The notes beneath the pieces are model-generated. The model was not told where the DNA came from, made no database searches, and saw nothing but the letters and a program-made list of their open reading frames with translations. From Campylobacterales bacterium (GTDB taxonomy: Bacteria > Campylobacterota > Campylobacteria > Campylobacterales > Sulfurovaceae): a stretch of 64,000 nt of DNA. The stretch lies in assembly GCA_014763895.1 (NCBI GenBank), contig JACXUM010000010.1:1-64000 (forward strand). Direction: 5' to 3'. Position numbers and translations under genes: made by a program. Positions 10,881 to 40,887 of the stretch are shown piece by piece (the first letter of the stretch is position 1; each line of letters starts with the position of its first letter).

Positions 10881-10888
10881 TGTGAAAT

Positions 10889-10920
10889 GTTACCAATTTG
10901 TTACCATTTTAGTCTATGAC
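10889..10920 (+). promoter_or_regulatory. Pho box and -10 of the phosphate porin
   Basis: Two exact GTTACCA repeats at 10889-10895 and 10900-10906 (11-bp period), then 8 bp, then a -10-like TATGAC at 10915-10920. The porin ATG lies at 10951. The layout matches PhoB boxes of other bacteria (7-bp direct repeats with 4-bp gaps that replace the -35). Confidence 0.8.
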
Positions 10921-10950
10921 TCGAAAATAAAACATAAAGGGATGGAAACA

Positions 10951-12300
10951 ATGAAAAAAGTTGTACTTTCAGCTGCTGCCGTAATCGGTATGGCAGGCGT
11001 AGCCAATGCAAGTTCTAGTTCTGAACTTGCTGAATTAAAGGCGCAAATGGCTGCAATGGCCAAAAAGATCGAGATGTTGGAATCAAAACAGGCAAAATCT
11101 GACCAAAAAGTAGAAAAGATTACTGTTGCAAAAGAAAGTGAGAAAAATGATATTACTATTGTAAATCCAGATTCTCCAGAATTTTTGTTGGGTAAAGAAA
11201 CAGACATCAATATGAAGTTTAAAGCACAAGATGACCCAGATATGTGGTTGAAAGCCGGTATAAGGTTGCAAGGAACATTTGATAATAGGCAGACAGATTA
11301 TGTAGATCCGACAAAGGCCGATCAAACATTACAAGATGCATTTATGAGAAGGGTTAGATTTGAGATCGCAGCAGGTTTCACAAAAAACACTTCGTTTGTT
11401 ATGGACGTAAGAAACGATAAAGCAAATTATGAGGATAAAGGGGAAGAAGGGTTTAACGTTGGTGATGCATATGTTAAAATCGACAAACCTTTTGATGATT
11501 CGTTAGTCAACTTCAAACTATATCGTGCCAAGATCGATGTTTCTCGTACAGAGACCGTCAAATCAGCACATACGATATGTTATGACAGGCCTTATGTTGC
11601 CGATGAAGCTGCACAGTTCATTTCTGAAAACCGCCGTGCAGCAAATGCACAAATGTACGGAGATTGGAATAAAAAAGTACACTATCAGTTGGCATTTGGA
11701 GATGCAACGGCATCAGATCATTCCAAAGATGCTATTGGTACATCTTTAAATGGTTCAATTAAAGATGCAAATTTCTTCTATGGCGGGAAATTGATCCTCT
11801 CACCATTTGACGGCTGGGAAGAGACAGACCGTACGGAAACGTATTTTGGAGAAGGCAAACACTTTGCGCTTGGGGTCGGTTATTGGAAGGCACCTAATAT
11901 TGAATATTCCACAGGCGATTCAACAGACCATACATTGATCAACTATGAGCTTTCTGCGCATTATAAAAATGCATTTGTTCAAGCAGAATATTTTGATTTT
12001 GACGGTGTTGTAAGAAAGTGGGCTTCTGATGAGACTGGAACATCTTCTGGATGGTATGCAACAGGTGAGTATGTTATTCCTGAACTCTCTTATATCGCAC
12101 CGTTTGTAAGATATGAGAAGTGGGATAGATGGGAAGATGCATCAGGATATGACTTGACATCTAAAGTTGCCGGAATCAACTGGTATCTACGCGGAAATAC
12201 GACAAAAGTAGGTTTGGTATACCAAAAAGATTCTTATGGCGAAGAAATCGGCAATAAAGATGTAACATCAACCAGAGTAACAACACAGTGGTTTTTCTAA
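10951..12300 (+). CDS. Phosphate-selective porin (OprO/OprP family)
   Basis: 449 residues from ATG 10951; an upstream in-frame GTG at 10882 would place the start inside the promoter. Signal peptide 1-21 (VLSAAAVIGMAGVANAS), then a coiled coil (about 23-50, LAELKAQMAAMAKKIEMLESK) that probably mediates trimer contacts, then a 16-strand-type barrel ending in Phe (TTQWFF). Barrel segments such as LKAGIRLQGTFDNRQ and AFMRRVRFEIAAGF match the phosphate-selective porin O/P family. It lets phosphate cross the outer membrane when phosphate is scarce. The Pho box upstream supports this. A hairpin terminator follows. Confidence 0.85.
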   Translation: MKKVVLSAAAVIGMAGVANASSSSELAELKAQMAAMAKKIEMLESKQAKSDQKVEKITVAKESEKNDITIVNPDSPEFLLGKETDINMKFKAQDDPDMWLKAGIRLQGTFDNRQTDYVDPTKADQTLQDAFMRRVRFEIAAGFTKNTSFVMDVRNDKANYEDKGEEGFNVGDAYVKIDKPFDDSLVNFKLYRAKIDVSRTETVKSAHTICYDRPYVADEAAQFISENRRAANAQMYGDWNKKVHYQLAFGDATASDHSKDAIGTSLNGSIKDANFFYGGKLILSPFDGWEETDRTETYFGEGKHFALGVGYWKAPNIEYSTGDSTDHTLINYELSAHYKNAFVQAEYFDFDGVVRKWASDETGTSSGWYATGEYVIPELSYIAPFVRYEKWDRWEDASGYDLTSKVAGINWYLRGNTTKVGLVYQKDSYGEEIGNKDVTSTRVTTQWFF

Positions 12301-14018: not shown

Positions 14019-14050
14019 GTTATCAAAATGTAACCAAAATATAATAATAT
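14019..14050 (+). promoter_or_regulatory. Pho box and -10 directly at the phoB-like start codon
   Basis: GTTATCA 14019-14025 and GTAACCA 14030-14036, 11-bp period, then 8 bp and TAATAT 14045-14050. A perfect TATAAT also exists at 14040-14045. Either -10 puts transcription start within about six bases of ATG 14058, so the mRNA should be leaderless or nearly so. The position suggests autoregulation. Confidence 0.78.
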
Positions 14051-14057
14051 TCGAAGC

Positions 14058-14741
14058 ATGGAAAAAAGTCAAATCGAAATCGTAGTGATAGAGGATGAAG
14101 AGGATATTTTGGAGTTGTTGGAGTATCATCTCGCCAAAGAAGGGTATCAGGTAACAGGTTTCCTTTCTAGTGAGAATGTGGAACAGTTTTTGGAGGAAGA
14201 GACTCCTGATTTGATGATAGTGGATCGTAACCTTCCGGGAATGGAAGGAAGTGAATTTGTCTCTCATCTTCGAAAAAAAGGTTTTGAAATCCCGGTCATT
14301 TTCCTGACTGCCAAAGATGAAGAAAGTGAACTTGAAGAAGGCTTTAGACGGGGTGGTGATGACTATATGACCAAGCCTTTCAGCAACAAAGAACTATTGC
14401 TGAGGGTCGAAGCTCTGCTAAGACGAAGTGGAGTACGTTCTGATACGATGCTGCGCTATAAAGACCTTGCGCTTGATATGCAAAAACATCAGCTGTATGT
14501 TGATGGGAAATCGATTGATTTGACCAATCTGGAATTTAAACTGCTTCAGACTTTTGTTAAAAATCCAAAACAGCCCCTGGATAGAGATTATTTAAGAGAT
14601 GAAGTATGGGGTAGCGAAAACGAAAAATTTCATGATAAAACGATCAATGTAGCAATCAACCGTCTCAAAAAAAAGATCGACCCGTCCGGTCAAAAAAACT
14701 ATTTTGCTCCTGTATGGGGAATCGGATACAAGTTGATGTAA
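14058..14741 (+). CDS. PhoB-like OmpR-family response regulator
   Basis: 227 residues. Receiver domain 1-118 with acidic pocket (IEDEED), phospho-acceptor Asp in LMIVDRNLPGMEG, Thr in FLTAKD and Lys in MTKPFSN. Winged-helix DNA-binding domain about 128-225 (LTNLEFKLLQTF, DKTINVAINRLKKKID, GIGYKL). Its location inside the phosphate island and the Pho box at its own promoter suggest it is the regulator that reads the repeated boxes here; this is inferred. No ribosome site precedes the ATG. No histidine kinase is encoded next to it, so its partner must lie elsewhere. Confidence 0.85.
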   Translation: MEKSQIEIVVIEDEEDILELLEYHLAKEGYQVTGFLSSENVEQFLEEETPDLMIVDRNLPGMEGSEFVSHLRKKGFEIPVIFLTAKDEESELEEGFRRGGDDYMTKPFSNKELLLRVEALLRRSGVRSDTMLRYKDLALDMQKHQLYVDGKSIDLTNLEFKLLQTFVKNPKQPLDRDYLRDEVWGSENEKFHDKTINVAINRLKKKIDPSGQKNYFAPVWGIGYKLM

Positions 14742-14781
14742 ATTTTTTTGTTCAACTTTTTCTTTTCTCACCCTAATATTT

Positions 14782-14813
14782 GTTACCAAAATGTTATCAA
14801 TTTATTTTATACT
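14782..14813 (+). promoter_or_regulatory. Pho box and -10 of pstS
   Basis: GTTACCA 14782-14788 and GTTATCA 14793-14799 (11-bp period), 8-bp gap, TATACT 14808-14813. pstS starts at 14862. Confidence 0.82.
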
Positions 14814-14861
14814 TCGCGAAATCCCAAAGGGACAACCTACTTTTTTTAAGGAAAAAAACAG

Positions 14862-15863
14862 ATGACATTCAAAAAAGCATTTACAGCCGCTTTGGGAGCA
14901 TCGCTGGCACTTACAGCAGTACATGCGGATGATATCAAAGGTAGAGGAGCATCATTCCCTGCACCGGTTTATCAAGCGTGGACAACCGAGTATTACAATG
15001 TAACAAAAAACCAGGTTAACTATACGCCGACAGGGTCTGGCGACGGTATTGCTTCTGTATCAAAAAGAATGGTGGATTTTGGTGGTTCTGACAGTCCGCT
15101 CAAATCAGAAATTCTTAAAAAAGCAAAACTTTACATGTTCCCAAGTGCGATCGGTTCAATCATATTGGCTTATAATATCGACGGTGTAAAAGACGGTGAG
15201 TTGAAACTCAGCCGTGCTGCGATTGCAGCGATCTTCTCGGGAAAAGCGTCATTCTGGGATGATGAGGTTATCGCAAAAGAGAACCAGGGTCTTAAATTGC
15301 CGCATGAGCCTATCACTGTTGCAGTAAGAGCGGATGAATCAGGTACAACCTACAACTTTACTTATTTCCTTAACAAAATCGACCCATCTTTTAGCGTAAG
15401 CAAGCAGCCAACATGGAAGGCGACTAAATTGGTGGCCGGTAAATCAAATTCCGGTGTTTCGGCCAACATCCAGCAGATCAAAAACTCTATCGGATATGTT
15501 GAGTATTCATATAAAATCCAACTTGGATTACCAGCGGCTCAAGTAGAGAATAAAGAGGGTAAATTTATCACTCCTACAGTGGAATCGTTCCAGGATGCAG
15601 CAAAATACGCAACTTGGACTCCTGAAAATGATTTTTATGCAGTGATCGGCGACCCAGCCGGTGCGACTTCTTACCCGATCGTTGCGGCAACATTTATACT
15701 GCTTCCTCAAGAGAAGACCGAAATGGATAAAAAAGTAACTGCATTCTTTGACTGGGCGTTCACAAATGGTGACAAGGCAGCGGCAGATCTTGGATATGTA
15801 CCGCTTCCAAGCTCTACAAAAGACCAGATCAGAACATACTGGGAAAACAAAAAAATCAAATAG
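14862..15863 (+). CDS. pstS: Phosphate ABC transporter, periplasmic binding protein
   Basis: 333 residues. Signal peptide 1-22 (ending AVHADD). PstS family features: IKGRGASFPAPVYQAW at the mature N terminus, the phosphate-binding GSGDGI and FGGSDSPL motifs, and ADESGTTYNFT. It captures phosphate in the periplasm for PstCAB. It has its own Pho promoter, and a hairpin plus a second Pho promoter separate it from pstC, so it can be made in excess over the membrane parts. Length is usual for the family. Confidence 0.92.
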   Translation: MTFKKAFTAALGASLALTAVHADDIKGRGASFPAPVYQAWTTEYYNVTKNQVNYTPTGSGDGIASVSKRMVDFGGSDSPLKSEILKKAKLYMFPSAIGSIILAYNIDGVKDGELKLSRAAIAAIFSGKASFWDDEVIAKENQGLKLPHEPITVAVRADESGTTYNFTYFLNKIDPSFSVSKQPTWKATKLVAGKSNSGVSANIQQIKNSIGYVEYSYKIQLGLPAAQVENKEGKFITPTVESFQDAAKYATWTPENDFYAVIGDPAGATSYPIVAATFILLPQEKTEMDKKVTAFFDWAFTNGDKAAADLGYVPLPSSTKDQIRTYWENKKIK

Positions 15864-15877
15864 ATTCTTCTCCTTTA

Positions 15878-15899
15878 CAATGGTGCCTTGGCACCATTG
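15878..15899 (+). terminator. Hairpin between pstS and pstC
   Basis: Nine-to-ten-bp perfect stem CAATGGTGCC / GGCACCATTG with a two-to-four-base loop, followed by TCTTATTTTAT, 14 bases after the pstS stop. It can act as a terminator or mRNA-stabilising end. Confidence 0.7.
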
Positions 15900-15910
15900 T
15901 CTTATTTTAT

Positions 15911-15953
15911 GTTATCATTTTGTTACCAGATTGTAATCATCGTACCATACAAT
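15911..15953 (+). promoter_or_regulatory. Three-repeat Pho box and -10 of pstCAB
   Basis: GTTATCA 15911, GTTACCA 15922 and GTAATCA 15933, each 11 bp apart, then 8 bp and TACAAT 15948-15953. pstC starts at 15984. Confidence 0.82.
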
Positions 15954-15983
15954 TCTTTTCAATTCTATAGGCAAGGTTAAATC

Positions 15984-16835
15984 ATGAACGCAAAGCTTTT
16001 TAGGCAGTTCTCTTTTTTCTCCGCAACACTCACTTTTTTTCTTTTAGTCGGCATTTTCGCAGTTCTTTTTGATTATGCCAACGAATCGATTCGTGAGTTT
16101 GGGTTTAAATTTTTGACGATCGATACATGGGAAACCGGTGAAGACGGGTATGGAGGTGTATTTGGAGGATGGGTTCCGATCATCGGAACACTGATGAGTA
16201 CCTTGATCGCGATGGCGATCGCAACGCCTTTAGCTATGGGAATCGCCATCTTTTTGACCGAAATCGCACATGGATACCTTATTAAGCCCGTTTCGATCGC
16301 TATTGAGCTTTTGGCTGCTATCCCGAGTATTATTTACGGGATGTGGGGGCTCTTTTATTTTGCACCGATCGTCCAGGAGCTCTTTGGCGGTAACGGGGTC
16401 GGGCTTTTGACGGCAGGAATCGTTCTGGCGATCATGATCATTCCGTTTATGGCGGCCATCACCAGAGATGCCATGAATACCACACCGGGAGCACTCAAAG
16501 AATCGGCTTATGCTATGGGCGCTACGACTTTTGATGTGATCAAAGATGTAGTCATGCCTTATTCGAAAGCCGGTATCATCGGTTCGATCATTTTGGCATT
16601 GGGCCGAGCCCTTGGTGAAACAATGGCGGTAGCGTTCCTGATCGGTTCAGTGATGAGCGTTGCCCATCGTGTGACAGATCCGACCATATCTATTCCGGTC
16701 TTGTTGGCGAATAACTTTTCAGAAGCGCAGGATCTGCAGCTTTCAAGTATGTACTATTTGGCATTGCTCCTCTTTGTGGTCAGTTTTGCGGTGATTGCAC
16801 TGGCGAAGTTTTACTTCCTTAGAAGGAGTGTATAA
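15984..16835 (+). CDS. pstC: Phosphate ABC transporter permease PstC
   Basis: 283 residues with six membrane segments. The binding-protein-dependent transport signature is present (ESAYAMGATTFDVIKDVVMP, then LGRALGETMAVAFLIGS). PstC pairs with PstA to form the channel of the high-affinity phosphate transporter. AAGG lies before the ATG. The last base is shared with the pstA start (TAATG), which indicates coupled translation. Confidence 0.92.
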   Translation: MNAKLFRQFSFFSATLTFFLLVGIFAVLFDYANESIREFGFKFLTIDTWETGEDGYGGVFGGWVPIIGTLMSTLIAMAIATPLAMGIAIFLTEIAHGYLIKPVSIAIELLAAIPSIIYGMWGLFYFAPIVQELFGGNGVGLLTAGIVLAIMIIPFMAAITRDAMNTTPGALKESAYAMGATTFDVIKDVVMPYSKAGIIGSIILALGRALGETMAVAFLIGSVMSVAHRVTDPTISIPVLLANNFSEAQDLQLSSMYYLALLLFVVSFAVIALAKFYFLRRSV

Positions 16836-17641
16836 TGAATCGCTTAGTATTGAATAAGATCATTTTATTGCTCTCAACCGTCTCGGCAATGATCGGGATA
16901 GGATTTCTTTTTTGGATACTTATCACACTGGGGTATAAGGGGATATCAAGCATTCATATTACCACTTTTACCCATGATATGGTGAACGGCGGTATCAGAA
17001 ATTTGCTGGTGGGACAGTTTACAATGGGACTTGTGGCAACTCTTATTGCGGTTCCTCTGGGTATGATGGCTGGGATATATCTAAGGGAATATAGTTACGG
17101 TAGTAAACTGGCAGCCGTGCTTCGAAATCTTAGTGACGTGATGATGAGTGCCCCCTCTATCGTGGTTGGGGTTTTTGTCTATGCTTTTATGGTGGCCCCT
17201 TTTGGTACTTATAACGGATGGGCAGGAAGTGTAGCATTGGCGATCATGATGATCCCGATTATTGTAAGTACGACAGACAATATGCTCTCCTTGGTCCCGC
17301 AGGAACTTAGAGAAGCGGGTATTGCGCTTGGAGGAAGCAAACACAAGATCATTTTGCAAATTATACTCAAAGCGGCAAAAGTGGGTATCACTACAGGGAT
17401 ACTGCTCTCATTCGCGCGTATCATCGGTGAAACGGCACCGCTGCTTTTTACCTCATCAAATAACCAGTTCTTTACGATGAACATGAACGAACAGTTCCCG
17501 TCTTTAACGGTCAGTATCTATAATCTGGCAACCTATCCGGATGAGGCAAGCAGAGAATTGGCATGGGCGGCATCCTTTGTCTTGACGGTGATCGTGTTGT
17601 TGATCAATCTTATCGGACGTTATGCAACCAGAAGTAAATAA
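16835..17641 (+). CDS. pstA: Phosphate ABC transporter permease PstA
   Basis: 268 residues with six membrane segments and the EAA-type loop ([23 protein letters not shown]), followed by [14 protein letters not shown], typical of PstA. AGAAGGAG lies just upstream in the end of pstC. It forms the channel with PstC. The gene is followed by pstB after eight bases. Confidence 0.92.
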
Positions 17642-17649
17642 GGAAAAAA

Positions 17650-18441
17650 ATGGAACAAATGAATTTGGCAATTGAGGTAAAAGATTTTTCTTTTACCTAT
17701 CCAGGTGCAACAGCACCTTCACTAAAAAAGGTAAACCTTTCGATCGCACGCAATAAGATCACGGCACTGATAGGTCCAAGCGGTTGCGGCAAATCAACGC
17801 TGCTTCGCAGTATGAACCGTATCCATGACGTATATCCGGGGAATAAGTACGAAGGTGAAATCAATCTGTATGATAATGCGGGAGCTGTACAAAACATTTT
17901 GGAACTTCAAAAAGAGAATGAGCTGATTGAATTGCGCCAAAGTGTAGGGATGATCTTTCAAAAGCCGACACCTTTCCCTATGAGCATTTTTGATAATGTT
18001 GCGTATGGTCTGAAGCTATCAGGTATCAAAAATAAAACCGAATTGAAAGATCGTGTAGAAGTAGCGCTGAAAGGTGCAGCAATCTGGGAAGAGACAAAAG
18101 ACCGTCTCAATCAAAGTGCGATGGGAATGAGCGGCGGGCAGCAGCAAAGACTCTGTATCGCAAGGGCAGTGGCACTCAAACCCGAAGTACTTCTTTTTGA
18201 TGAACCGACATCGGCACTAGATCCCATCTCAACCGGGGCAATTGAAGAGTTGATCGCAGAGCTTAAATCGGAAGTTTCTGTTGCGATCGTGACACACAAT
18301 ATGCAGCAGGCAAGCCGTTTGAGCGACTACACGGCATTTATGTACCTTGGAGAGTTGATCGAATTTGATGTAACAGAAAACATTTTCCTTAACCCATCGA
18401 ACAAATTGACCGAAGATTATGTAACGGGAAGATTTGGATAA
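17650..18441 (+). CDS. pstB: Phosphate ABC transporter ATPase PstB
   Basis: 263 residues. Walker [10 protein letters not shown] (about 39-47), Q-loop [12 protein letters not shown], signature MSGGQQQRL, Walker [14 protein letters not shown] and switch His in VTHNMQQA. The sequence [18 protein letters not shown] is diagnostic for PstB. It powers PstCA. AAGGAAAAAA precedes the ATG. Confidence 0.94.
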
Positions 18442-18505
18442 TTTGGATGAGCAAGCATCATTTTAGATTGATAGAGAGAAAAGATAAAAGAAAAAGGAGC
18501 GAAAG

Positions 18506-19168
18506 ATGTTAAACGCAGAATTTAGAATCGGTGAAATAAGAGAAATGACAGCAGGCGTTTTGAATGATATGATCATTTCCCAAAAAATTGCCCTACAGGC
18601 ACTGGAAGCATGTGATGAAAAAAGTTTTGAACAGGCTCTCATCCCGCTAAAATCGATCGATGAAAGAGTGGAAGAGATAGATAGCCTGATTCTATCGGCA
18701 TTTGTACGTTTCTCTCCGGAAGCCAAAGACCTTCGTGAACTCGTCGCTTTTTTGAAGATCACTTCTGCACTGCAACGTATCGCGACGAACGAAAAAAACT
18801 ATATGAAGAATATGAAGATCTGCAACCCAAAATCAGACGATGGGATTAAACTTATTATTAAAGAGTCTCTTGCCATCAATCGCTGTACAATCCAGGCAAT
18901 GACCTTCACAATAGAGATGATTCAAGAAGTAAATGACAAAGACAGACTGAAAGACCTTGATAGCAAGATCGATGTGGAATTCAGCAAAACAGACGATATC
19001 TATTCGATGATCGAAAAGAATGTATTGCAGAATATGCATGGAGATCATGAGGTGGATGATGAACAAATCAATATTCTCAAGTATATCAGAAAGAATCTCA
19101 AGATCATTGACAGGCTTCAGGATATTGCATCAAAACTGATCTTCGCAAGGATTGGCGGGAAACTTTGA
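18506..19168 (+). CDS. phoU: PhoU-family regulator
   Basis: 220 residues, all-helical, with two PhoU-type three-helix repeats (about 10-95 and 110-205) and acidic metal-binding motifs such as DERVEEID and DSKIDVEFSKTDD. PhoU restrains Pst and phosphate signalling in other bacteria. AAGGAGCGAAAG precedes the ATG. The 3' end overlaps the oppositely oriented patatin-like gene by 39 bases. Confidence 0.86.
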   Translation: MLNAEFRIGEIREMTAGVLNDMIISQKIALQALEACDEKSFEQALIPLKSIDERVEEIDSLILSAFVRFSPEAKDLRELVAFLKITSALQRIATNEKNYMKNMKICNPKSDDGIKLIIKESLAINRCTIQAMTFTIEMIQEVNDKDRLKDLDSKIDVEFSKTDDIYSMIEKNVLQNMHGDHEVDDEQINILKYIRKNLKIIDRLQDIASKLIFARIGGKL

Positions 19169-19897
19169 TAGCCTTTGAAGGGCAGCTTCATATCCAAGCT
19201 CAAACAGTGAATCGAAGTGTTTGAAACTAAGCAGGTTATAGCTTGAAATCGCCGGATGGCTGATACGGAGATCACAGGCTTGCAAATGAGCCTGTAGGGA
19301 AGCCCGCCAAGTTAGGAAAAGTGTCCGTCTGAGCAATCTTGCCATTCCTGAAATTTTCTCCTGATGAAGGGGATGCAGATCCACACCGATGATGGGATGC
19401 CCATATTCCAGCAGCGGAGAGACGGGAAGATTATCCATCACTCCTCCGTCAACAAGTTGATATCCCTCATACGAGATTGGTTCAAAAAGCGGAACTACGG
19501 CACTTGAAGCAGTACACAACATGATCGCAGGTCCCTGATCGAAGCGCACAATCTTGCCCCCACTAAGATCGACGGTTGTGATATGGAGTTTTATAGAAGT
19601 TTGTCCTATATCTGAAATCGGGATCAGCTTTTTAAGGATGTCACGCTGTTGGTTAACATGAAAGAGGCCGTTTGTAAACCCTTTGAATGCAAAAATCTTT
19701 TTGAATGCCTTGGAATTGAAGATGTCAAGCTGTTCTTTTGGAGATACACCGGCAGCATAGCTGGTACCAATGACCGCTCCTATACTGCTTGCCGAAATGG
19801 CTTGAATGGCAAATTCTTTTTCATCCAGAGCTTGCAGTACTCCTAGATGGAAAGCACCTCTTGCCGCACCGCCGGATAATGCCAAACTAACTTTCAC
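19130..19897 (-). CDS. Patatin-like phospholipase
   Basis: 255 residues from the GTG at 19897 (VKVSLALSGGAARGAFHLG fits family N termini; a GTG at 19927 would add ten residues). The oxyanion loop SGGAARG, a serine elbow ISASSIGAVIG in which the first Gly of G-x-S-x-G is Ala, and the catalytic DGG (VDGGVMDNLP) are all present. Such enzymes hydrolyse acyl chains from lipids in the cytoplasm or at the inner membrane. The start lies inside the end of the plcP-like gene, so both are one transcription unit, and the context suggests phospholipid turnover. The 3' end overlaps phoU antisense. Confidence 0.8.
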   Translation of the reverse strand: MKVSLALSGGAARGAFHLGVLQALDEKEFAIQAISASSIGAVIGTSYAAGVSPKEQLDIFNSKAFKKIFAFKGFTNGLFHVNQQRDILKKLIPISDIGQTSIKLHITTVDLSGGKIVRFDQGPAIMLCTASSAVVPLFEPISYEGYQLVDGGVMDNLPVSPLLEYGHPIIGVDLHPLHQEKISGMARLLRRTLFLTWRASLQAHLQACDLRISHPAISSYNLLSFKHFDSLFELGYEAALQRLSKFPANPCEDQF

Positions 19898-20630
19898 GCT
19901 CCAACCAATCGATGATTTTCCATTCACCTTCCATTGTCTCGACCAACGCGGTGCATGACTCCACCCAATCGCCTGAATTCTTATAAGCGATTTCGCCGAT
20001 CATTTTCATTTCTGCTTTATGGATATGTCCGCAGATCACACCATTATACCCTTTATGTTCTGCATGTTTGGCAAGTATTGTTTCAAAATCTGTGATAAAA
20101 CTGACCGATTTTTTGACGTTGTCTTTGACATATTTGGAAAGAGACCAATATCTCTGGATGCCGCATTTTTGACGAATAAAGTTCAAGATCTGGTTGAGAT
20201 GAAGTAAAAGATCATATCCCATATCTCCCAGCAGGGCAAGCCATTTTTTGGTCATGGTTACCGAATCGAAGAAATCTCCGTGCGTGATATAGTGTCTTTG
20301 TCCGTCAAGTGCAATGTAGTCTGCTTCATTGAGAATGGTCAGCCTGTCTCCGAGCACGATAGGAAGAAAATCCCGAAGAAATTCGTCATGATTCCCGGTG
20401 ATATAGTAGACTTGGGTACCTTTTCTGGCTTTTCTGAGGATCTTTTGAATGACATCGGAGTGCGGTTGTGCCCAGCGGATCTTGCGTTTCATTGCCCAAC
20501 CATCGATGATGTCCCCGACAAGATAGAGGTTCTCAGACTCATGTTCTTTTAGAAAGTCCAAAAATCTTTCTGCCTGACAAAACCGTGTCCCTAGGTGAAT
20601 ATCGGAGACAAAAATAGATCGATAGGTCAT
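19887..20630 (-). CDS. PlcP-like phospholipase C / LpxH-family metallophosphoesterase
   Basis: 247 residues from the ATG at 20630; a TTG farther up at 20678 would add residues not seen in relatives. Metallophosphoesterase motifs in order: SDIHLGT, GDIIDGW, GNHDEFLRD, HGDFFD, CGHIHKAE. The segments SDVIQKILRKARKGTQV and NSGDWVESCTALVE match the PlcP branch of COG2908, known in Sinorhizobium and marine bacteria to cut phospholipids to diacylglycerol during phosphate shortage; automatic pipelines usually call this branch UDP-2,3-diacylglucosamine diphosphatase. It is divergent from the olsF-type operon across a Pho box, which favours the PlcP reading. True LpxH function is the alternative. Confidence 0.72.
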   Translation of the reverse strand: MTYRSIFVSDIHLGTRFCQAERFLDFLKEHESENLYLVGDIIDGWAMKRKIRWAQPHSDVIQKILRKARKGTQVYYITGNHDEFLRDFLPIVLGDRLTILNEADYIALDGQRHYITHGDFFDSVTMTKKWLALLGDMGYDLLLHLNQILNFIRQKCGIQRYWSLSKYVKDNVKKSVSFITDFETILAKHAEHKGYNGVICGHIHKAEMKMIGEIAYKNSGDWVESCTALVETMEGEWKIIDWLERES

Positions 20631-20692
20631 TGTGTGCTTTTCTCTGACATCTTTTGCATGGTGATATCGTATAGTCAAACGATTACAGAACG

Positions 20693-20735
20693 GTTACCGG
20701 GATGTTACGAAAATGTAACCAGGCTTTTTTACAAT
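20693..20735 (+). promoter_or_regulatory. Three-repeat Pho box and -10 of the ornithine-lipid operon
   Basis: GTTACCG 20693, GTTACGA 20704 and GTAACCA 20715 at 11-bp period, then 8 bp and TACAAT 20730-20735. ATG at 20763 follows a CAGGAG site. The box also sits 62 bases upstream of the divergent plcP-like start, so it may act in both directions. Confidence 0.82.
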
Positions 20736-20762
20736 AGCAAAACTTATCGACAGGAGTTGTTT

Positions 20763-20972
20763 ATGCAAATTGTGTATGAGATATCGGATCAATCTATAGA
20801 AGAACTTTCAAAAAAGATCGCAAAATCTTTTTCTATGACCAAAGACGAAGCTTTGGAAATGATCTATGAAGAGTGGGAATTGGTGGAATCGCTTTTTGCA
20901 GATTTTGGCAAGATCCATTTGGTGCATCAACACCTGATCAATGAGATGAATGAAGTGTATAGGATAGCCTAA
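20763..20972 (+). CDS. 69-residue helical protein encoded before the ornithine-lipid synthase
   Basis: Starts at ATG 20763 with CAGGAG eight bases upstream; a longer frame from 20595 crosses the promoter and is not used. The product is acidic and predicted helical (SIEELSKKIAKSFSMTKDEA, EWELVESLFADFGKI), with no Cys, signal peptide or membrane segment. I do not recognise a family. Its stop shares a base with the start of the olsF-like gene (TAATG), so the two are translated together from the same Pho promoter. A helper or acyl-carrier-interacting role is only a guess. Confidence 0.72.
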   Translation: MQIVYEISDQSIEELSKKIAKSFSMTKDEALEMIYEEWELVESLFADFGKIHLVHQHLINEMNEVYRIA

Positions 20973-22684
20973 TGCAGTTAAGCATCGAAAATTATATGGA
21001 GCACCATTATCCCCAGATTATACATCTTCCCCAGGTCATGAAAAATCTGCTTTTTGCGGGACTGAAAAAATTGTTCCATGAAGATCAGATCAACCTTTTT
21101 TTACGGGAAAATACACAAAAGGATGCATTTAGCTTTATCGAAGCGATCATCGACTATTTTGATATTTCCATTGGGCTCAGAAAAGAGGAGTTACGCCATA
21201 TACCGGCATATGGACGGGTAGTGATCATTGCCAATCATCCTTTGGGGGCATTGGATGCCATGGCCCTGATGCATCTGCTCAAAGATATCAGAAGTGATAT
21301 CAAGATCGTAGCCAATGATTTTCTCTCTTCGCTTGACAATATTTCTTCGGTACTCATCGGGGTAGACAATATCACCGGCGGCATGAACAAAGAGACGATC
21401 AAGCAGGTCTACCATGCACTTGAAGCTGAACAAGCCGTGATCATTTTCCCCTCGGGAGAGGTGAGCCGTGCCAGACCTAACGGGATCAAGGATACGCCTT
21501 GGAAAAACGGATTTTTGAAAATGGCAACCAAGATGAAAGCGCCGATCCTGCCGATCCATATTAAAGCAAAAAACTCCAACAATTTTTATCTCCTCTCTAT
21601 GATCAACCGTTCGCTGGCCACTGCAACACTTCCCCATGAGATGTTCAAGGCCCAGGGTAAAAAGATAGAATTTGTCATCGGTAAACCAATTCCCTATGAA
21701 GCTTATCATTTACCGTCTCTTGATACAGGGAATGTGGTAAAGCTTCTTAGAAAGCATCTCTATCGCATCGCTAAACATAAAAAACCGCTGTTTAAAACCT
21801 ATAATGAAATAGCGGTTCCAGAATCTAGAAGCGAACTCAAAGCCGAACTTAAAAAGGGCAAGGTTCTGGGAGAGACATTTGATGGGAAAAAGATTATTGT
21901 TTATGAATCAGCCATAGAGAACTGTGTACTAAAAGAGATCGGCAGGCTCAGAGAGATCAGTTTCCGTCATGTGGGAGAGGGGAGCGGTAAAAAACGCGAT
22001 CTTGACGGGTATGATTACTATTATAAGCATTTGATTATCTGGGATGATGAAAATTTGGAGATCGCCGGAGCATACCGTTTAGGCGAATCAAGACAGATTG
22101 TAGAAGAATACGAGCTTAAAGGCCTCTATACGACAACACTCTTTGAATTTGATAAAGAGTTCCTGCCTTATATTGAAAGAGGATTGGAGCTTGGAAGAAG
22201 TTTTGTTCAGCCAAAATATTGGAACAGCAGAGCACTAGATTATCTATGGCAGGGGATTGGTGCCTATGTAAAACAAAACCCGCAGATACGCTATCTCTTT
22301 GGAGCGGTCAGCCTTAGTGATGCATTTAACGACAAGGCCAAAGCATTAATGATCTATTTTTATCAGCACTACTTTCATCCCGAATTACCGTTAGTGAACC
22401 ATAAAGTCTCTTATCGGATGCCCAAAGAGCTTCAAGCCTATTGTGAAGATCTTTTTATGGGAAATAACTACAGGGAAGATCAGTTAAGGCTTAAAGAAGA
22501 GCTTGGCCTTATGGGATATGCCATTCCTACCCTTTATAAACAGTATTCGGAAGTATGTGAAGAGGGGGGAGTGAAGTTCTTGGATTTTGGCTATGACAAG
22601 GATTTTAACAACTGTATCGATGGGATGATCGTTGTAGATCTGCAGTATCTTAAACCAACCAAAGCAAAGCGCTATTTCAAATAA
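20972..22684 (+). CDS. olsF: Bifunctional ornithine-lipid synthase (OlsF type)
   Basis: 570 residues in two parts. Residues about 60-270 are a PlsC-like O-acyltransferase with NHPLGALDA (about 88-96), FPSGEVSRARPNG and PILPIHIKA. Residues about 290-480 are a GNAT-type N-acyltransferase of the OlsB kind, with REISFRHVGEGSG, DLDGYDYYYKHLI and IAGAYRLGES. OlsF proteins, described in Serratia and Flavobacterium relatives, make ornithine lipids by N- then O-acylation of ornithine. These phosphorus-free lipids replace phospholipids when phosphate is short, which agrees with the Pho box upstream. The order of the two domains matches OlsF. Substrate could be another amino acid. Confidence 0.8.
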   Translation: MQLSIENYMEHHYPQIIHLPQVMKNLLFAGLKKLFHEDQINLFLRENTQKDAFSFIEAIIDYFDISIGLRKEELRHIPAYGRVVIIANHPLGALDAMALMHLLKDIRSDIKIVANDFLSSLDNISSVLIGVDNITGGMNKETIKQVYHALEAEQAVIIFPSGEVSRARPNGIKDTPWKNGFLKMATKMKAPILPIHIKAKNSNNFYLLSMINRSLATATLPHEMFKAQGKKIEFVIGKPIPYEAYHLPSLDTGNVVKLLRKHLYRIAKHKKPLFKTYNEIAVPESRSELKAELKKGKVLGETFDGKKIIVYESAIENCVLKEIGRLREISFRHVGEGSGKKRDLDGYDYYYKHLIIWDDENLEIAGAYRLGESRQIVEEYELKGLYTTTLFEFDKEFLPYIERGLELGRSFVQPKYWNSRALDYLWQGIGAYVKQNPQIRYLFGAVSLSDAFNDKAKALMIYFYQHYFHPELPLVNHKVSYRMPKELQAYCEDLFMGNNYREDQLRLKEELGLMGYAIPTLYKQYSEVCEEGGVKFLDFGYDKDFNNCIDGMIVVDLQYLKPTKAKRYFK

Positions 22685-22705
22685 AGATGTCAATCTGACA
22701 TCTTT
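22683..22705 (+). terminator. Terminator hairpin of the ornithine-lipid operon
   Basis: Perfect ten-bp stem AAAGATGTCA / TGACATCTTT with a three-base loop, overlapping the olsF stop codon and ending in TCTTTTA. Confidence 0.75.
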
Positions 22706-40705: not shown

Positions 40706-40780
40706 TTGGTGACCCCAAGGAGACTCGAACTCCTGTAACCAGGATGAAAACCTGGGATCCTTACCGCTAGACGATGGGGC
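40706..40780 (-). tRNA. tRNA-Glu (TTC), copy 1
   Basis: 75 nt on the minus strand with encoded CCA. Acceptor GGCCCCA / TGGGGTC (one G-U), anticodon loop TTTTCAT between CCAGG and CCTGG (anticodon TTC), T arm with GGAGTTCGAGTCTCC. Confidence 0.95.
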
Positions 40781-40812: not shown

Positions 40813-40887
40813 TGGTGACCCCAAGGAGACTCGAACTCCTGTAACCAGGATGAAAACCTGGGATCCTTACCGCTAGACGATGGGGCC
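40813..40887 (-). tRNA. tRNA-Glu (TTC), copy 2
   Basis: 75 nt, identical to the neighbouring copy, 32 bases away and in the same orientation. Tandem duplication, probably co-transcribed. Confidence 0.95.

Follow-up and report, generated by a model that had tools for sequence, protein, structure and literature searches.

The window, that is the whole 64-kb stretch of DNA analysed here, belongs to a Campylobacterota genome of 1.77 Mb in 47 contigs. It contains a phoB-pstSCAB-phoU cluster (14058-19168) adjoined by two divergent operons, one formed by plcP and a gene for a patatin-like lipase, the other by a small open reading frame and olsF, with a shared Pho box in the gap between them (Table 1). 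The nearest named relatives of the PlcP encoded here are mostly Sulfurovum MAGs, and the genome, from a free-living bacterium, is accordingly regarded as Sulfurovum-like. The patatin, plcP and olsF genes, their divergent arrangement and their location directly beside pst-phoU had been recognized in an earlier note on this sequence, and all are present as described except for the patatin start. This was placed at 19927, and is most likely the GTG codon at 19897 (GAGC GTG AAA GTT AG...); the resulting protein start, MKVSLALSGG, is conserved in relatives, and the overlap with plcP is 11 nt. The 69-aa open reading frame between the box and olsF had been missed.

Table 1. Features of the phosphate cluster and the divergent operons (positions in the window).
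Feature	Position	Strand	Remarks
phoB-like response regulator	14058..14741	+	PF00072 + PF00486; own Pho box 14019-14045
pstS, pstC, pstA, pstB	14862..18441	+	Pho boxes 14782-14808 and 15911-15948
phoU, last gene of the pst operon	18506..19168	+	PF01895; convergent with patatin gene, 3' ends overlap
patatin-like lipase, ~255 aa	19130..19897	-	PF01734, 93.6 bits; translationally coupled to plcP
plcP-type metallophosphoesterase, predicted phospholipase C, 247 aa	19887..20630	-	PF00149
-10-like hexamer TATACG, plcP-patatin promoter	20668..20673	-	read from sequence
shared Pho box, both directions	20671..20719	.	leave-window-out motif, 18.2/18.0/15.7 bits
-10-like hexamer TACAAT, small ORF-olsF promoter	20730..20735	+	10 nt past last half-site
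Shine-Dalgarno AGGAG of small ORF	20752..20756	+	read from sequence
small ORF, 69 aa, predicted four-helix protein	20763..20972	+	stop overlaps olsF start (TAATG)
olsF, bifunctional ornithine lipid synthase, 570 aa	20972..22684	+	NF052615 and Pfam domains

By its sequence, the product of 20972-22684 is an OlsF, as the earlier note had proposed, and ornithine lipid synthesis is predicted for it. The score against the NCBIfam equivalog NF052615 lies well above the cut-off (783.8 vs 620 bits, residues 3-569), and both acyltransferase domains are present: the O-acyltransferase PF19576 and the GNAT-type N-acyltransferase PF13444. The gene is single-copy in the host genome. In one other genome (locus L132 of G355), pstCAB is flanked by two olsF copies.

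The small protein encoded ahead of OlsF is a member of a family with lengths of roughly 56-82 residues. At a profile E<1e-20 this family has 10 loci, the window locus among them, in several families, and at each of these it immediately precedes olsF; relatives also occur in named Sulfurovum and Hydrogenimonas MAGs. Its dN/dS of about 0.2 or less indicates that the open reading frame evolves as a protein. The structural model has four helices (pLDDT 83); no match was found in Pfam, NCBIfam or PDB folds, and the fold search returned nothing credible. Co-translation with OlsF suggests that the small protein is a partner or regulator of this enzyme. In a Hydrogenimonas MAG, a second copy (L215:4495-4704) is not directly followed by olsF, so the protein may also act apart from olsF.

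The gap between the operons contains the sequence ATTAC-N6-GTTAC-N6-GTTAC-N6-GTAAC (20682-20719), flanked by a -10-like hexamer on each side. The Pho box announced in the earlier note is confirmed; instead of three repeats it has four half-sites, starting at 20682, 20693, 20704 and 20715 with an exact 11-bp period. The exact three-repeat pattern has a single location in the 1.77-Mb genome. The layout on the plcP side, GTnACnnnnnTGTAATC-N7..9-TAnnnT, is also seen upstream of other plcP genes, and the same box-to-TAnnnT layout as on the olsF side precedes many other olsF genes. Upstream of plcP in many genomes, the Pho box and the -10 element often leave so little room before the start codon that the transcript may have almost no leader. 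Two further matches to the Pho pattern were rejected as regulon members, one beside a subtilisin-like protease (C13:1316) and one beside molybdopterin oxidoreductase genes (C30:15760). In half-site type and period the box resembles the PhosSR box of Campylobacter jejuni, a direct repeat of GTTTC/GTTAC-type half-sites with an 11-bp period; the GTTTC form is present in relatives. The PhosSR regulon of C. jejuni is not known to include lipid genes.

A 27-column motif was trained on the olsF upstream regions of other genomes, with the window left out. Within the window, 8 of its matches exceed 15 bits, and every one of them lies in the phosphate cluster (porin included): at 10889 before the porin-like gene, at 14019 for phoB, 14782 for pstS, 15911 and 15922 for pstC, and in the plcP/olsF gap at 20671-20719. 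Column-permuted motifs give 0.15 such matches on average, with a maximum of 2 in 300. Treating related genomes as independent, as all motif counts and Fisher values here do, the motif exceeds the 95% level of the controls in 39 of 61 plcP upstream regions, compared to 5% of the 239 controls (Fisher p 8e-23). Outside the training set the control level is also exceeded upstream of pstS (4/6), pstC (6/10) and phoU (8/13). The rate for patatin genes is low (1/46), as expected for a gene located inside an operon. A motif trained on pst/phoB/pit/phoU genes alone detects 10 of the 61 plcP upstream regions (p 0.005) and is weaker, probably because this training set is small and mixed. The direct-repeat box common to the plcP/olsF gap and the pst/phoB promoters thus supports the phosphate control postulated in the earlier note, and binding of PhoB to the region between the divergent operons is predicted; the activator would presumably be the product of the phoB-like gene (14058-14741).

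At 22.6 bits, no other Pho box of the window is as strong as the one at 10889-10915, which lies at a porin-like gene (10882-12300) without any Pfam family at 1e-5. This gene is a candidate phosphate-starvation porin, and its true start is probably the ATG after the box. Two identical 27-base stretches (40735-40761 and 40841-40867), 106 bases apart, show a weak likeness to the box and are probably a repeat unrelated to phosphate.

Among 397 Campylobacterota genomes, OlsF over the cut-off is encoded in 118 and a close PlcP homologue in 79, the latter representing 32 genera. OlsF accompanies PlcP in 78 of these 79 genomes. The single exception (G105, locus L053) has plcP and olsF adjacent to each other, both interrupted by stops, and is a decaying module. 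PlcP is missing from 40 of the 118 OlsF genomes, which indicates that OlsF also functions in the absence of PlcP. In eight genomes, among them the host, plcP and olsF are neighbours or at most 5 kb apart; in additional members of one family (f10) they are no more than 30 kb apart. In several families, olsF adjoins pst, phoU or phoB. Cultivated carriers are Sulfurospirillum arcachonense and Sulfurospirillum diekertiae, each of which has plcP with patatin.

The window phosphoesterase carries a calcineurin-like metallophosphoesterase domain (PF00149, 42.8 bits, cut-off 21.5), and public annotation pipelines label proteins of this kind as UDP-2,3-diacylglucosamine diphosphatase. Together with a weak LpxH profile match (NF003743, 57.8 bits), this label would make it the LpxH of the cell, acting in lipid A synthesis, with the neighbouring Pho box being incidental. 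Such a reading is highly improbable. The scores remain far below both LpxH cut-offs (134 bits for NF003743; 52.5 vs 190.35 bits for TIGR01854), under which the host's own LpxH-like protein also falls (54.1 and 29.1 bits, respectively). The amino acid identity is 47% to the PlcP-type protein of the Pseudomonas aeruginosa plcP-glycosyltransferase locus and 44% to the Sinorhizobium meliloti pSymB homologue, compared to 23-24% for both E. coli LpxH and the host's own LpxH-like protein. The motifs GNHDEFLR, HGDxFD, YWSxS, CGHIH and GDWVESCTA are common to the phosphoesterase and PlcP; where it has GNHDE and HGDxFD, E. coli LpxH carries GNRDF and HGDTLC. The phylogeny against PlcP and LpxH, set in the earlier note as a possible refutation, did not refute the PlcP reading. 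In the maximum-likelihood tree the protein falls into a 25-row PlcP clade with support of 100/97, apart from both LpxH groups; this clade includes the P. aeruginosa protein, which is named PA3219/PA3218 by gene order and not by locus tag. A two-tree topology test also admitted a position of PlcP on the margin of this clade (p-AU 0.08), and the case therefore rests on branch support, identity and motifs. A protein of the PA3219 kind is required in P. aeruginosa for the formation of glycolipid from diacylglycerol in low phosphate (PMC8528852). A separate LpxH-like gene (L046 type) is located beside argC in the host genome, and its type is present in 119 of 121 Campylobacterota genomes, compared to 79 of 397 for PlcP, so that lipid A synthesis has no need of the window phosphoesterase. 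LpxJ was considered as an epsilonproteobacterial substitute for LpxH and dropped, as it is described as a late acyltransferase. The PlcP-like identity given in the earlier note is thus upheld by independent sequence evidence: the phosphoesterase is PlcP-type and not LpxH, with predicted phospholipase C activity.

In the patatin-like protein, the Ser-Asp dyad (Ser37 of SxG, Asp149 of DGG), Gly39 and the glycine-rich oxyanion loop (SGG) are invariant in 12 relatives. The model (pLDDT 86.5) finds its closest fold in the lipase domain of PlpD (E 2e-19); unlike in PlpD, no export or barrel domain was seen. By gene clustering, 45 of 60 loci have a patatin gene following plcP in the same orientation; a direct search finds it immediately after plcP in 59 of 79 genomes (22 genera). 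Nine PlcP-like loci viewed from other phyla or classes have no patatin neighbour, and five of them have a glycosyltransferase beside plcP. We infer that the lipase most likely de-acylates diacylglycerol or lysolipids. Since the solved structure most closely related to it is the phospholipase domain of PlpD, it might instead be a phospholipase A that frees fatty acids directly from PE/PG in parallel to PlcP and does not recycle diacylglycerol. The chances of this are somewhat below even, for the export and barrel domain of PlpD is absent and the tight coupling to plcP would suggest, without proving it, a common intermediate.

Some relatives carry a glycosyltransferase of the GT4 family next to plcP, a few of them directly downstream, in the slot held elsewhere by patatin. 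It was identified in 23 genomes, all of which also encode PlcP (23/23). The host is among them, with a GT4 gene on another contig (L252:3143-4288, contig C2) preceded by a two-half-site Pho-like box, GTTACCAAAGTGATAAC, that ends 21 nt before the ATG. These observations, including the adjacency to plcP in several genomes, would fit a module serving mainly to make glycolipids from PlcP-derived diacylglycerol, in the manner of PlcP-Agt, in which OlsF and PlcP are simply co-regulated and do not form two halves of a replacement. We regard this as unlikely, because such a GT4 is absent in 56 of the 79 PlcP genomes, OlsF being present in 78 of them, and because the GT4 is only 26% identical to the glycosyltransferase of the P. 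aeruginosa locus and 29% to the Agt-type enzyme of Sphingomonas. The PlcP genomes divide into 10 with GT4 only, 46 with patatin only, 13 with both and 10 with neither (p 0.024, uncorrected for relatedness); this tendency towards mutual avoidance gives a weak hint that GT4 and patatin are alternative ways of handling diacylglycerol. A betaine-lipid route was rejected, as no DUF3419 (BtaA) match was obtained in the host genome, and a diacylglycerol kinase of the DgkA type was likewise not found there.

Gene identities, the promoter motif, operon coupling and phylum-wide co-occurrence make it very probable that the module carries out a PhoB-controlled remodelling of membrane lipids, in which phospholipids would be dismantled and replaced by ornithine lipids under phosphate starvation. 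The proposed steps are the following: (i) phosphate starvation would cause the PhoB-like regulator to bind the box at 20671-20719 and switch on both divergent operons; (ii) PlcP would remove the phosphate head groups from phospholipids, yielding diacylglycerol and a recoverable phospho-alcohol; (iii) the coupled patatin would most likely de-acylate diacylglycerol or lysolipids and so prevent their build-up; (iv) the small helical protein would be produced together with OlsF, which would assemble a phosphorus-free ornithine lipid from ornithine, one 3-hydroxyacyl and one acyl chain, and this lipid would take the place of phospholipids. The GT4 encoded elsewhere in the genome probably converts part of the diacylglycerol to glycolipid. 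A more far-reaching version, which appears rather doubtful, envisages a two-step dismantling by PlcP (phosphate head) and patatin (acyl chains). The chains would be reused by OlsF with the small protein as its partner, a direction of acyl flow that we infer, so that both the carbon and the phosphate of phospholipids would be recycled into ornithine lipid synthesis and diacylglycerol would not be kept for glyco- or betaine lipids.

The PlcP-Agt and PlcP-BtaBA systems of Sinorhizobium, Phaeobacter, SAR11, Pseudomonas aeruginosa and Methylosinus, like the module described here, connect a Pho-boxed phospholipase C of the PlcP type with the synthesis of phosphorus-free lipids (PMC4796936, PMC8528852, PMC9239053). 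However, there are differences: the constant partner here is OlsF and not Agt or BtaBA, and the slot downstream of plcP, held by agt elsewhere, is usually occupied by patatin. The OlsF proteins of Serratia proteamaculans, Vibrio cholerae and Flavobacterium represent the same two-domain enzyme, and in V. cholerae ornithine lipid is induced by low phosphate (PMC12186959). In contrast to these, the olsF described here is preceded by a coupled small protein, for which no described counterpart was found, and is located within a pst-phoU-phoB cluster together with plcP.

The earlier note considered the system possibly new to this group, which holds in part. The occurrence of olsF in epsilonproteobacteria has already been reported (PMC12186959), and ornithine lipids made up 40% of the lipids in Sulfurimonas gotlandica (PMC9789136); the factors to which that Sulfurimonas study linked ornithine lipid were the strain and the growth condition rather than phosphate. 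Surveys of PlcP name Alpha- and Gammaproteobacteria, Flavobacteria and a verrucomicrobium (PMC4796936). In the open-access papers searched, no PlcP of Campylobacterota was found, the one match obtained concerning a SAR11 glycosyltransferase. The linkage of PlcP and olsF is undescribed in the open-access literature searched, and the same applies, as far as that search extends, to PlcP and OlsF as constant partners, to the operon of plcP and patatin, and to the small protein.

With regard to annotation, proteins named LpxH by pipelines can be PlcP in Campylobacterota. A lipase and a small protein are added to a pathway for which, as a rule, only PlcP and a lipid synthase are described. Phosphate-driven membrane replacement thereby becomes a testable trait of the Campylobacterota, among them chemolithotrophs of vents, sediments and groundwater.
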